Part shown: in pieces, positions 4,665 to 56,297 of the stretch
How positions within the stretch are numbered: position 1 is the first letter of the stretch
Layout: the number at the start of each line of letters is the position of its first letter
IMG/VR virus record: IMGVR_UViG_3300040770_000152
Location: 1 to 64,000 of that record
DNA: 64,000 nt
Strand: one strand, 5' to 3'
Origin: a virus
The notes under the pieces: generated by a model
Databases searched by the model: none
Told to the model about the DNA's origin: nothing
What the model saw: the letters and a program-made list of their open reading frames with translations, nothing else
Position numbers and translations under genes: made by a program

Positions 4665-4933
4665 CTCTAGGTTGGGATTACCCACCGAGTTGCTTATTAT
4701 CTGGGAAGAAAAACGAGCTATTCATAGATTGGTTTATAAGCAATATGTTTTATACCTTTCCTATAACAAGGGAACCAAGACTGTCCCTCGAAGGATTGCA
4801 ACACTTCCTTCTTAAAAGGATACAAGGGTTGGACTACGAGAGTTTAATGTTTATGAGTGTAGAAAAACGGGATGCTTTCTTTGAAGATGAGTATGCTATT
4901 TACCAAAAAGAATTAGAGCAATCTAACAAATAA
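4655..4933 (+). CDS. Frameshift extension of the tail assembly chaperone (gpT-like part)
   Basis: In the -1 frame relative to the upstream gene, this 92-codon stretch is uninterrupted from the slippery T-run. It begins FGIALGWDYPPS and continues into the segment starting at the ATG at 4745, which alone would encode only 62 residues. The fused product would be about 384 residues. The extension is acidic at its C terminus (DEYAIYQKELEQ). It sits 10 nt before the tape measure, matching the gpG/gpGT arrangement. The 4745 ATG could also be used separately, but the open extension back to the T-run argues for frameshifting. Confidence 0.75.
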   Translation, partial: FGIALGWDYPPSCLLSGKKNELFIDWFISNMFYTFPITREPRLSLEGLQHFLLKRIQGLDYESLMFMSVEKRDAFFEDEYAIYQKELEQSNK

Positions 4934-16840: not shown

Positions 16841-17416
16841 ATGAAGGAACTAACCAACGACAATAGGGTTGAAAAAATAGCAGAACACTTTAAAGAGATT
16901 ATGTTATTACTAGGCTTGGATCTACAAGACGATAGTTTAAAAGATACACCACTAAGAGTTGCTAAGATGTATGTTAATGAGATATTCAGTGGTCTATTTA
17001 CTGAGCAGCCAAAGCTTACTTCTTTTGAAAACACTAAAGGTATAGATCAAATAGTTATAGTTAAAAATATTGAGATGACTTCTGTTTGTGAGCATCACTT
17101 TATGCCCATAGTAGGTAAAGTTCATATAGGTTACATACCTGATGGTAAAGTTTTAGGTTTAAGTAAGTTTAATAGAGTTGTACAATATGTTTCTGCTAGA
17201 CCCCAATTACAGGAACGCATTTTACAAGACATACACGGTATACTTACTCCACAGTTAGGAGAAAATATTATTATAGTGGCTGAAGCTGTCCACTTTTGTA
17301 GTTGTATGCGAGGTCCTAAAGATATGAGTTCTGCTACTGTCACTTCTTTAGCTACGGGTATGTTCCGTTATGACAAAAGTGTTAAAGATGAATTTTTTAA
17401 ACTTCTAGGCAAATGA
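16841..17416 (+). CDS. folE: GTP cyclohydrolase I
   Basis: Converts GTP to dihydroneopterin triphosphate, the first step of preQ0 synthesis. The 191-residue protein carries the zinc ligand motif CEHH at 83-86 and His151 and Cys153 in HFCSC. The IGYIPDGKVLGLSKFNRVV region near 97-114 and the terminal RG at 157-158 also fit the family. In this phage it should feed QueD, QueE and QueC encoded 26-31 kb downstream. It shares an ATGA overlap with the next gene. Confidence 0.93.
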   Translation: MKELTNDNRVEKIAEHFKEIMLLLGLDLQDDSLKDTPLRVAKMYVNEIFSGLFTEQPKLTSFENTKGIDQIVIVKNIEMTSVCEHHFMPIVGKVHIGYIPDGKVLGLSKFNRVVQYVSARPQLQERILQDIHGILTPQLGENIIIVAEAVHFCSCMRGPKDMSSATVTSLATGMFRYDKSVKDEFFKLLGK

Positions 17417-19973: not shown

Positions 19974-20209
19974 TGAGAAAGATATATTTTGAGTTATCGA
20001 TATACGGCATAAATGCCCTTGAACTTAAAGACATAATTGCTACTCCCGTAGCTATGGCTTATGCTAATAAGAGCATCAATAGTATTATTGACCCACTGCC
20101 CACTAGGTTCCTAGTTTATGTTTCTTACTATCCAGTTGAGGCTAATACCTTCGTTAGTGTGCTTAATTCTGCCTTAATTGCCTTAGGTAATCAACACTAC
20201 AAAAAGTAA
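19973..20209 (+). CDS. Unknown small protein
   Basis: 78 residues, start overlapping the previous stop (TAATG). Mixed alpha/beta in appearance, with a hydrophobic C-terminal helix (FVSVLNSALIALG). No motif recognised. Confidence 0.65.
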   Translation: MRKIYFELSIYGINALELKDIIATPVAMAYANKSINSIIDPLPTRFLVYVSYYPVEANTFVSVLNSALIALGNQHYKK

Positions 20210-26513: not shown

Positions 26514-27929
26514 ATGGTAAAAGAATTCGTCATAGACTTATTTTGTGGTGCTGGAGGTACAGCTACCGGAATACATTTAGCTAATTGTGATAGTGAGGTA
26601 GTTGCTTGTGTTAACCATGATGCCAAAGCAATAGAAAGCCATAAACTCAACCACCCTAAAGCTGTACACTACACAGAGGATATTAGAAATCCTGAGGTAG
26701 TTGCCAAATTAAAAATACAAGTGCAAGAACTAAGGTATAAATACCCACTATGCGTAATTACTATTTGGGCAAGTTTGGAGTGTACTAATTTTAGTAAAGC
26801 CAAGGGCGGTTTGCCTAGGGATGCTGATAGTCGTACACTTGCGGAACACCTTAATATGTACGTGGAAGCTATTAATCCAGAATACCTAATGATTGAAAAT
26901 GTACAGGAGTTCATGAGTTGGGGTCCTTTAGATACTTTAGGTAAACCTATTAGTCGCTTCAAGGGTTCTGATTATACTGCTTGGGTAGACAGTATTAAAA
27001 AATATGGTTATGATTTTGACTATAGAATACTAAATTCAGCTGATTTTGGTGCGCCACAGTCGAGGAAACGTTACTTTTCTCAATTTGCTAAAATTGGTAT
27101 GCCTATAGAGTTTCCGTTGCCCACACACAATAAAAAAGGAACTGACGGACTTTTAAAACATTCGGCCGTTAGACACGTTTTAGATTTGACTGATATTGGA
27201 GCGTCCATATTCAATCGAAAAAAGTTGCACGTAGAGAACACACATAAAAGAATACTTGCGGGTCTAAAAAAGAGCGTAGTTTCTACAGATAAAGATTTTC
27301 TAACTACTTATTACGGTAGTGGAGCTTGTGTACATTCCGTTGATAGACCCAGTCCTTGCCTGACAACTAAAGACAGGGTTGCTAAGGTTCATTTTTTAAT
27401 GCTTAGTTACACTACAGGTGATAACGTTAAAGATATAGATGGTCCAGCAGGTACAGTAATGGTAAATGATAAGCACAATTTTGTTACCGCAGAACACTTT
27501 GTTTATAATCCTCAATACAAGAATACAGGCAGTAGTATTGAACGCCCTAGCCCTACAGTAATTGCTAGACAAGATAAAGCGCCACTTTATTTGATTAGTT
27601 ACGTTTTTGATAGTGAGTTGAAGATACCTATTTATGAGACAGACAATCCTACGTTAGTTAAGATCAAAGAATTCATGGCTGCTAATGGTATTGTAGATGT
27701 TCTTATGCGCCTTTTCTATGTTCCAGAGTTATTAGCAGTTCAAGGTTTCCCCAAAGATTACAAATTAGTAGGTACTTTAGCAGAACAGAAAAAGTTTATA
27801 GGTAACGCAGTAGAGACTACTATCGCTAAAAAACTATTCGAGGCGCACTCTAGTTCTATCGACTACTTAAGATCTTTAGACTCTGCCGTGCTAAGAACTA
27901 TGCTTTGTACTAATTTAATAATTGGATAA
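26514..27929 (+). CDS. C5-cytosine DNA methyltransferase-like protein with altered motif IV
   Basis: A 471-residue member of the C5 methyltransferase family. Motif I is DLFCGAGG (8-15), motif VI is ENV (128-130), and motif VIII is QSRKRYF near 177-183. The late motifs VQGFP and IGNAV lie near 410 and 430. The usual catalytic PCQ.FS is replaced by LECTNFS, keeping the nucleophile Cys90 but not Pro or Gln. The variant may change the modification or target chemistry. Function is probably self-protection of phage DNA. The region between VIII and IX is long and could be the target recognition domain. Confidence 0.85.
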   Translation: MVKEFVIDLFCGAGGTATGIHLANCDSEVVACVNHDAKAIESHKLNHPKAVHYTEDIRNPEVVAKLKIQVQELRYKYPLCVITIWASLECTNFSKAKGGLPRDADSRTLAEHLNMYVEAINPEYLMIENVQEFMSWGPLDTLGKPISRFKGSDYTAWVDSIKKYGYDFDYRILNSADFGAPQSRKRYFSQFAKIGMPIEFPLPTHNKKGTDGLLKHSAVRHVLDLTDIGASIFNRKKLHVENTHKRILAGLKKSVVSTDKDFLTTYYGSGACVHSVDRPSPCLTTKDRVAKVHFLMLSYTTGDNVKDIDGPAGTVMVNDKHNFVTAEHFVYNPQYKNTGSSIERPSPTVIARQDKAPLYLISYVFDSELKIPIYETDNPTLVKIKEFMAANGIVDVLMRLFYVPELLAVQGFPKDYKLVGTLAEQKKFIGNAVETTIAKKLFEAHSSSIDYLRSLDSAVLRTMLCTNLIIG

Positions 27930-54876: not shown

Positions 54877-55260
54877 ATGATAAGAATCGTAAAGTTTTAT
54901 TTCCGTAGTGAAGAGAAAGTTAGTACAGCTTGTTGTATTATTATAAAGTATGGTGTTCTTACTCGAAGAGTTAGTGCCAGCTACAATTTTACGCATACTG
55001 GAGAAGGTACTGTAATACGCAATGAGGGTAAAGAGTCTCTATTGTATGAACTGGAGTTATTATTGCTGGATATAAACAATTACGGAAATAATATAATTGT
55101 TGGTATTACACTACATGAGGATAAAGTAGTAGTTAAAATGTACAGAGTTATCTTTATGCTCCGTGTAGTTATAGACTCTTTAATTGGAGGTGTATCTGTT
55201 AATGAAGATGTAATGATACGTAACTATTGTTTAGAATCTAGACATGATATATTTAGCTAG
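54877..55260 (+). CDS. Unknown protein, 127 aa (four-gene family, divergent)
   Basis: A 127-residue protein with strands, then LLYELELLLLDINNYGNNIIV and a final helix, a weaker version of the shared pattern. Two nt after the previous stop. It is followed by the GT-rich non-coding region. Confidence 0.63.
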   Translation: MIRIVKFYFRSEEKVSTACCIIIKYGVLTRRVSASYNFTHTGEGTVIRNEGKESLLYELELLLLDINNYGNNIIVGITLHEDKVVVKMYRVIFMLRVVIDSLIGGVSVNEDVMIRNYCLESRHDIFS

Positions 55261-55520
55261 GAACGGAGTGGATGAAACTGTGTGTGTGTTTAGCTGGCTT
55301 GGATTAGACCCCCCCACCAAAGTTCGTCAACGGCTGGGTAAAAGCTTGGCTTAGTAGTGATACAAAAAAGCTAGATACCGTAGAACACAAGTATAATTAT
55401 TAACTATCGAAAGGTAAACAATGTGTGCGTGTGTGTTAGGTAACTGGGATGTGTGTGTACGGGTGTAGTGTGTGGATGGGGTGAGGTTAGTGTGTAGGTA
55501 AAAAATTTGTGTGTGATGTG

Positions 55521-55550
55521 TTGTGTGTAAGATAAAAATTGGTATATTTG
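55521..55550 (+). promoter_or_regulatory. Promoter TTG-N19-TATATTTG
   Basis: TTG at 55521-55523 and an exact TATATTTG at 55543-55550 are at the consensus Bacteroidetes spacing. A start near 55557 would make a transcript of about 90 nt up to the terminator at 55618-55647. Confidence 0.68.
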
Positions 55551-55556
55551 AAAAGC

Positions 55557-55647
55557 CCTTGATGGTTGGGGCTAGAATCTTTCATACATTTATATCTATT
55601 GGTTAGTTAGGTGGGAGTTCCTCTACTGTAATGGTAGGGGAATTTTT
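55557..55647 (+). ncRNA. Candidate small RNA (about 91 nt)
   Basis: Bounded by a consensus promoter and a strong terminator. It begins near AAGCCCTTG and contains an AGCCC/GGGCT hairpin, then an A/U-rich stretch and the terminator stem. No coding frame of note. Probably a regulatory RNA, or the leader RNA of an attenuated transcript. Confidence 0.5.
55618..55647 (+). terminator. Terminator of the candidate small RNA
   Basis: The 9-bp stem TTCCTCTAC/GTAGGGGAA with one G-T pair and a 7-nt loop is followed by five T. Confidence 0.8.
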
Positions 55648-55838
55648 GCGTTTGGTAGGTGCGTAATGGTGCAATCAGAGCCTTCGCTTGTGTAGTTTGA
55701 CTGGGTTGTGTTGTTCACAGGTAAGTAGTAAAATGATGGTGAAAGTCGGCATAGTGCCTTATTTGGTCGTTTTTGGTGGCTATCTGATTAACTTACGTAA
55801 ATTTAACAAAAATTTAACATTTCTACCTTGTTTAACTA

Positions 55839-55869
55839 TTGTAGGTTAATCAATGTTGTCGTATCTTTG
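55839..55869 (+). promoter_or_regulatory. Promoter TTG-N20-TATCTTTG for the early gene row
   Basis: TTG at 55839-55841 and TATCTTTG at 55862-55869 match the -33/-7 consensus. An A/T-rich region with a repeated aaatttaac lies just upstream, like an UP element. A start near 55876 gives a leader of about 230 nt that includes the hammerhead. The row of small genes from 56106 onward is the likely target. Confidence 0.68.
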
Positions 55870-55966
55870 TATGGTAATACAATACGAGGGGCAAGTTCCT
55901 TCGACGTTTGAGAGAAGAACGGATTAAAACTCTTAGGTGGTACTTCCCACTTTCCTGCCAAGGGAG

Positions 55967-56034
55967 CCTATAAGCACTAGCGAATACGAGGCCACCCAGA
56001 CATCACAGGCAAATGAGGTAACTATAAGCACTAG
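55967..56034 (+). repeat. Direct repeat CTATAAGCACTAGC in the leader
   Basis: CTATAAGCACTAGC occurs twice, about 54 nt apart (from about 55968 and 56021). AATACGAGG also occurs twice, near 55885 and 55983. Both copies lie between the promoter and the hammerhead. Confidence 0.7.
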
Positions 56035-56042
56035 CTTGCTAA

Positions 56043-56089
56043 GGTTAACTGATGAGGCTTCAATAGCCGAAACCATTTAGGTATTAACC
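56043..56089 (+). ncRNA. Type I hammerhead ribozyme
   Basis: All conserved core elements are present in order. Stem I 5' strand is GGTTAA (56043-56048), then CTGATGA (56049-56055). Stem II is GGCT/AGCC with loop TCAAT (56056-56068), followed by GAAA (56069-56072). Stem III is ACC/GGT with loop ATTTA. The cleavage triplet is GTA, ending at 56083, and the stem I 3' strand TTAACC (56084-56089) is fully complementary to GGTTAA. Cleavage is predicted between 56083 and 56084, leaving a 22-nt leader before the ATG at 56106. Stem I is the open stem, so type I. Confidence 0.9.
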
Positions 56090-56105
56090 ATTAAAATTTA
56101 CGGAT

Positions 56106-56297
56106 ATGAAACTTACAAAAGAACAAAGTGAAGCAATTAGTACACTTAAAATGTTTAAGAGAACCCATATAACTAAGCTTGCTAAAAAAGAAATTACTTT
56201 GAAGCAGTATCATGACGACTTCCAGATAGCCTTGGAAACTGCCGTTCAAAAAACGGGTTTAGAAACTAGTGAAGTCGGATTTTTAATACTATCATAA
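56106..56297 (+). CDS. Unknown small protein, 63 aa
   Basis: Lys-rich, helical (TKEQSEAISTLKMFKR.., KKEITLKQYHDDFQIALETAV), no Cys. First gene behind the hammerhead leader. The aaaatttacggatATG context fits Bacteroidetes translation. Confidence 0.7.
   Translation: MKLTKEQSEAISTLKMFKRTHITKLAKKEITLKQYHDDFQIALETAVQKTGLETSEVGFLILS

Follow-up and report, generated by a model that had tools for sequence, protein, structure and literature searches.

What hammerhead ribozymes do in bacteria and phages was still considered an open question in a 2017 review (PMC6155905). The most pertinent precedent is the observation that several hammerheads often flank genes in prophages, for which processing into single-gene or operon-length mRNAs was proposed; three tandem sets cleaved polycistronic RNA in vitro, one of them also in E. 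coli, and a search for circular or spliced products turned up none (Perreault et al. 2011, PMC3088659). The same study described a hammerhead 13 nt before a start codon in haloviruses HF1 and HF2, at a position matching a mapped transcript 5′ end (PMC3088659). Theta ribozymes of gut phages are a further case of small self-cleaving RNAs carried by phages, though they are unlike hammerheads in having an HDV-like fold and a link to tRNAs (PMC10879173). Clustered hammerheads flanking prophage genes have accordingly been known since 2011, and what is added here is a phage family and the tightness of its packing between genes. A literature search yielded no description of that family, with the provisos that subscription papers and preprints were outside its scope and that the 2011 set was not compared by sequence.

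The window, by which is meant the whole stretch of DNA analysed, comprises 64,000 nucleotides of a viral record of 81,286 bases. On its plus strand the 47 bases at 56043-56089 read GGTTAA CTGATGA GGCT TCAAT AGCC GAAA CC ATTTA GG TA TTAACC and contain all invariant positions of a type I hammerhead ribozyme (Table 1). By sequence this element is a hammerhead-type self-cutting RNA belonging to a phage family, its cleavage and its function being inferred. Around the core are three stems, II and III closed by loops and I open; the core criterion (CUGANGA ... GAAA, an A15.1-U16.1 pair and UH ahead of the cut) is fulfilled, with A15.1 at 56072 and U16.1 at 56082 (numbering verified by script) and with G56081, U56082 and A56083 making up the GTA triplet. 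An earlier note, made from the letters alone, had named these elements in their order, and all are correct at base level, as are the positions it gave for the cut (56083/56084) and for a 22-nt leader before the ATG, with the cleavage itself remaining a prediction. Its description of the downstream row of genes as ‘early’ was not substantiated, there being no informative Pfam or PHROG match for the genes of the row, the 63-aa ORF included. The explanation preferred, with a probability of about 0.7, is a self-cleaving type I hammerhead of a phage family that trims or cuts transcripts, where transcription, cleavage and benefit are each inferred.

Table 1. Features at and around the hammerhead element, in window coordinates
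Feature	Position	Strand	Basis or remark
~780 nt without convincing gene	55261..56042	+	if transcribed, would be cut off as the 5′ RNA
Weak candidate Bacteroidota-type promoter: TTG, 20 nt, TATCTTTG	55839..55869	+	read from sequence
A flanking stem I, 5′ side	56042	+	A in 118/119 listed family members, not imposed by search
Type I hammerhead ribozyme	56043..56089	+	all motif elements present; 64.2 bits, E=2.1e-12 with the family covariance model
Stem I, 5′ strand GGTTAA	56043..56048	+	sequence; covarying in family
Catalytic core CTGATGA	56049..56055	+	sequence; IMG/VR decoy with one base changed gave 0 matches
Stem II GGCT/AGCC, loop TCAAT	56056..56068	+	strands 56056-56059/56065-56068; family loop consensus UNANU
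Core GAAA	56069..56072	+	A56072 paired with U56082; A-U pair kept in 67/67 aligned members
Stem III, 3 bp ACC/GGT, loop ATTTA	56072..56082	+	strands 56072-56074/56080-56082; A-U, C-G, C-G
Predicted cleavage site GUA, after A56083	56083..56084	+	established hammerhead chemistry; no experimental data
Stem I, 3′ strand TTAACC	56084..56089	+	56084 is the first base past the predicted cut
A/T-rich leader, 22 nt, left on mRNA	56084..56105	+	22-23 nt is the modal family distance
A flanking stem I, 3′ side	56090	+	A in 118/119 listed family members, not imposed by search
63-aa ORF directly downstream of ribozyme	56106..56297	+	ATG at 56106; first in row of small same-strand ORFs

How readily might so complete a motif turn up by accident? 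A strict descriptor, requiring 6 bp or more in stem I, 4 or more in stem II and, apart from the A-U pair, 2 or more in stem III, had no match on either strand of 400 first-order Markov replicas of the window. The covariance model behind the score in Table 1 was built from 23 family members from other phages with the window excluded, and the window copy is its sole match in the 64 kb of the window, with no further one in the remaining 17 kb of the 81-kb record. We give next to no credence to a chance resemblance lacking any catalytic role: the independent model (E=2e-12), the empty simulated windows, a decoy pattern without matches and covariation in three stems already contradict it, and what might be cited in its favour is that Rfam gathering thresholds were not reached and that the local folding energy of the element is no better than that of shuffled sequence, the latter being expected of a small, AT-rich three-way junction. 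The judgement in the earlier note that these parts would seldom arise together is upheld by the 400 replicas and by the independent model.

At gathering thresholds Rfam reported nothing in the window, and those of RF00163, RF00008, RF02275, RF02276 and RF02277 were unmet. The best permissive match, in the 1.5 kb searched, was to RF02275 (Hammerhead_HH9), spanning the whole model with 22.9 bits (gathering threshold 52) and E=0.0079; a comparison of the span with the Rfam hammerhead models, which the earlier note had suggested as a check, thus failed at standard stringency and gave a match only in this permissive form. HH9 shares with the window copy the core and a short 3-bp stem III with a 5-nt loop, and differs from it in loop II and in stem I, which in HH9 is longer and interrupted by an internal loop. 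Nor did Rfam recognise a ribozyme at 10 loci that together hold dozens of family members. With an abundant ribozyme group missed by curated RNA models at standard thresholds, self-cleavage of phage transcripts is being under-counted. BLAST with a 1-kb region gave weak matches, the best of which overlap only the leader and the 3′ portion of the ribozyme.

A general hammerhead pattern run on IMG/VR returned many type I hammerheads, among them a subgroup with the identical stem I AGGTTAA...TTAACCA; the same stem I and core are present in at least 119 IMG/VR stretches, and the decoy pattern CTCATGA, in which one catalytic base, a G, is changed, matched none. When species genomes of bacteria and archaea, 84,980 in all, were searched by pattern, a single match came up, in a metagenome-assembled bin. 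The presence of the family in phage records and, by pattern, almost never in bacterial genomes fits non-integrating phages. As to the one exception, at 4781-4835 of locus L235, it lies on a contig of 5.3 kb that was binned as Streptomycetaceae and may be phage DNA put in the wrong bin.

Several positions that the search pattern left free proved to be constrained. U16.1 is T in all 119 distinct pattern matches listed; at position 17 the matches listed have C (96) or A (23), and never G or T; and loop II follows U-N-A-N-U, with the first U in 102/102, the third A in 86/102 and the fifth U in 96/102. The window copy has UCAAU as its loop II, and it has both flanking A residues. Conservation of an A on both sides of stem I together with the U-N-A-N-U loop suggests, going by sequence, a tertiary contact of the stem I region with loop II, the kind on which fast cleavage depends, though none has been demonstrated. 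Covariation is strong in stems II and III of an ungapped 23-sequence alignment, and all three stems covary in a 67-member alignment, where stem I has two-sided changes at five of its six pairs; the larger alignment takes in extra copies from the same records and was fitted to the model, and hence is biased towards it. Covariance support, the lack of which in related phages would in the terms of the earlier note have told against the hammerhead, was found among family members from other phages, and the type I identity that it proposed is strongly supported by the independent model, the three-stem covariation and the catalytic positions outside the search pattern. The architecture conserved in the sequences compared, with its stems as modelled, runs A-(6-bp stem I)-CUGAUGA-stem II(UNANU)-GAAA-stem III-UH-(stem I′)-A. 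Conservation stops one or two bases beyond stem I, and for that reason the possibility of a dispersed mobile repeat was rejected.

Where do family members lie? In 116 of them the flanking sequence is long enough to tell. Of these, 88 are followed by an ORF whose ATG lies 12-32 nt past the cut, as against 5.4% of random positions, and in 90 (78%, against 6.7% of random positions) the stop codon of an upstream ORF is no more than 12 nt from where stem I begins, or is inside the ribozyme. The ATG is mostly 18-24 nt past the cut, and the window ATG, at 22 nt, is within the family range. In 24 members the upstream stop codon is the TAA of GGTTAA, in 21 the first TGA of CTGATGA, and in 12 a TAG overlapping the first base of the ribozyme. 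Some records have arrays, with 10 copies in G011, 8 in G007, 7 in G004 and 7 in G016, in a single row on a single strand, and with typically one or a few genes separating neighbouring copies. Family leaders are 59% A, and a Shine-Dalgarno-like string is present in 10 of 109. Such A-rich, Shine-Dalgarno-poor leaders fit the known start-site habits of Bacteroidota. The layout can be viewed at L239-L243 (from G011, G007, G004, G016 and G001, respectively), where small genes stand in rows with hammerheads between them and the stop is often inside the ribozyme.

Prophage hammerhead clusters resemble the present family in placement, with hammerheads of type I and of other types bordering single genes or short blocks of genes (PMC3088659). 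They are mostly near integrase genes, whereas bacterial genomes hardly contain the present family (one pattern match in 84,980 species), which is also set apart from them by its fixed 6-bp stem I with flanking A and by the tight stop-start packing. The idea that an identical stem I in each copy serves circularisation, cleaved units having complementary ends, is weakened on two counts: copies in one record have different, individually paired stems I, and circular or spliced products had been sought for tandem hammerheads in vain (PMC3088659).

Since the family sits before phage genes, often exactly between a stop and a start, its members probably cut phage messages into separate pieces. For the window copy the most likely course is self-cutting during transcription with release of the gene-row mRNA. 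The transcript would fold during its synthesis and cut itself after A56083; the mRNA for the downstream row would then have a 5′-OH and a short, unstructured A/U-rich leader, UUAACCAUUAAAAUUUACGGAU, of 22 nt before its AUG, and the upstream RNA would end in the ribozyme hairpins with a 2′,3′-cyclic phosphate. Motif, family, covariation and placement are there to be read; transcription is an inference, cleavage and the end groups are taken from hammerhead chemistry, and any benefit to translation or stability is deduced from placement alone, so that the effect on mRNA stability floated in the earlier note is not established. That cleavage sets the 5′ end of the mRNA is supported by the sequence context, namely the narrow range of ATG distances. 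With the element at gene junctions in relatives, its general job would be the division of long phage transcripts into shorter ones that share a uniform leader, and in the window phage it would trim a long leader off the first gene of the row. Counting against all this are the lack of RNA data, a stem III of 3 bp, competing folds, the absence of a stop-start junction in the window and the lack of any family member in the nearest named relatives of the phage.

The stops at or inside the ribozyme in most members do have a consequence at the other end, in that the 3′ end produced by cleavage comes immediately behind the stop codon. Making that 3′ end, with its stable hairpin, the main purpose and the downstream leader incidental is nevertheless quite unlikely, given an ATG distance that is just as tight and a window copy without coding sequence directly upstream. 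A different proposal, relevant to the junction members and not to the window copy, which has no such upstream gene, is a switch coupled to translation: with the upstream stop codon within stem I or the core, a terminating ribosome would block folding, and cleavage would occur only when the upstream gene was untranslated. Such gating is favoured by the 24 members whose stop codon falls exactly within GGTTAA and the 21 in which it is the first TGA of CTGATGA, yet the overlap may reflect mere compaction, and we hold the switch to be very unlikely.

Returning to cutting and trimming of transcripts as the preferred explanation, its wider form is one towards which we lean only slightly: that largely lytic phages, some clearly of Bacteroidota, use hammerheads as routine stop-ribozyme-start gene punctuation, with at most 10 to a row, and with perhaps some gating by ribosomes. 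If true, a compact cassette provides the stop codon for the gene before it, severs the message and equips every gene with a standard leader. This suggests a phage route from one transcript to single-gene messages without a host nuclease. For the question of what prokaryotic hammerheads are for, the family offers more than 100 instances of tight, testable stop-start placement, and a related single-copy version is present in cultured Flavobacterium phages.

The window copy is atypical. It heads a gene row behind ~780 noncoding nt, the nearest upstream ORF ending at 55260, rather than lying between two genes, and it lacks the upstream ORF ending at or within the ribozyme that is common, though not universal, in the family. 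Comparable to it is the HF1/HF2 hammerhead, likewise located before the first of several genes and with a mapped 5′ end supporting cleavage in vivo; that one, however, is from an archaeal virus, has a different core variant and is present as a single copy 13 nt from the start, whereas the window phage is bacterial and its leader is of 22 nt. The stem III segment of the window copy, at 9 nt, is the shortest in the family, all others found being of at least 12, and a dedicated search for further members with one as short gave none; the worry expressed beforehand about a 3-bp stem III was a fair one. Its stem III has a predicted pairing probability of 0.46, where the family median is 0.99, although 13 of the 117 members fall below the window copy. 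With ~200 nt of extra upstream RNA included, structure prediction prefers competing folds, one of which pairs 55932-55941 with 56072-56081, though such predictions leave out co-transcriptional folding and tertiary contacts.

Might the window copy be a true family member by descent that has become slow or is decaying, so that it cuts poorly and has a small effect on expression? The catalytic positions, stem I, loop II and both flanking A residues are all intact, Rfam HH9 has the same 3-bp, 5-nt stem III, and the distance to the ATG is the modal family value. These argue against decay, which the unequalled shortness of the stem III segment, the single copy in an 81-kb record, the lack of a gene ending at the ribozyme and the absence of the element from the nearest named relatives of the phage would favour; on the whole we consider it rather unlikely without setting it aside.

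The upstream region has some features of its own. There, CTTAGGTGGT (55932-55941) pairs over 10 positions with the stem III segment ACCATTTAGG (56072-56081), a predicted interaction that would block the ribozyme and that could be regulatory or due to chance. An exact 14-nt direct repeat, CTATAAGCACTAGC, is present at 55968-55981 and 56022-56035, 54 nt apart and just 5′ of the ribozyme. A structured regulatory leader was considered for this region and rejected (fold z-score 0.06, no Rfam match). As TANNTTTG alone is found 106 times in the window where 87 are expected, the candidate promoter match is not evidence of function.

Which phages carry the element? The DNA polymerase and tail sheath of the window phage are closest to those of Bacteroides phage BS162P1 (42% and 40% identity), from which it is probably, judging by these proteins, a Bacteroidota phage with a contractile tail. 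Its nearest named relatives, BS162P1 and a faecal relative, both distant, have no family member, and so the presence of the ribozyme is patchy, like that of a module gained and lost. No relatives of the window phage were found in IMG/VR by protein, using a 130-aa ORF and the tail sheath. The multi-copy carrier G003 has a terminase with named relatives in Flavobacterium, Cellulophaga, Tenacibaculum and Maribacter phages. Elsewhere in the window, at 26514-27929, is an ORF of 471 aa whose sequence looks like that of a C5 cytosine DNA methyltransferase, a reading with no family search behind it.

There are other phage hammerheads worth noting. A second group, seen at L005, L006, L038, L042, L066, L077 and L115, has GTCAAA/TTTGAC or ATCAAA/TTTGAT as its stem I, is repeated within a contig, and is followed by the Shine-Dalgarno-like CTGCTAGGAGAT. 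Some Pelagibacter phages have one related copy with stem I GCAAAA/TTTTGC; in cultured ones (HTVC019P, Jormungand and others) the related hammerhead is ~400 nt ahead of a MarR-like gene, and those at L236 2942-3014 and L238 3491-3563 have no annotated start nearby, so that their context differs. The Flavobacterium elemo phages have one related copy each, scoring 45-46 bits, with GGCAAA/TTTGTC as stem I in the one read; in MT497068.1, from a phage of Flavobacterium sp. BAL314, the ribozyme is placed at 17207-17276. In one of them, elemoB (MT497068.1, L237, locus 19991-20077), the annotated CDS start at 20035 falls inside the ribozyme and an in-frame ATG is present at 20077, ~28 nt past the predicted cut; the latter is the likelier start of its 84-aa protein.
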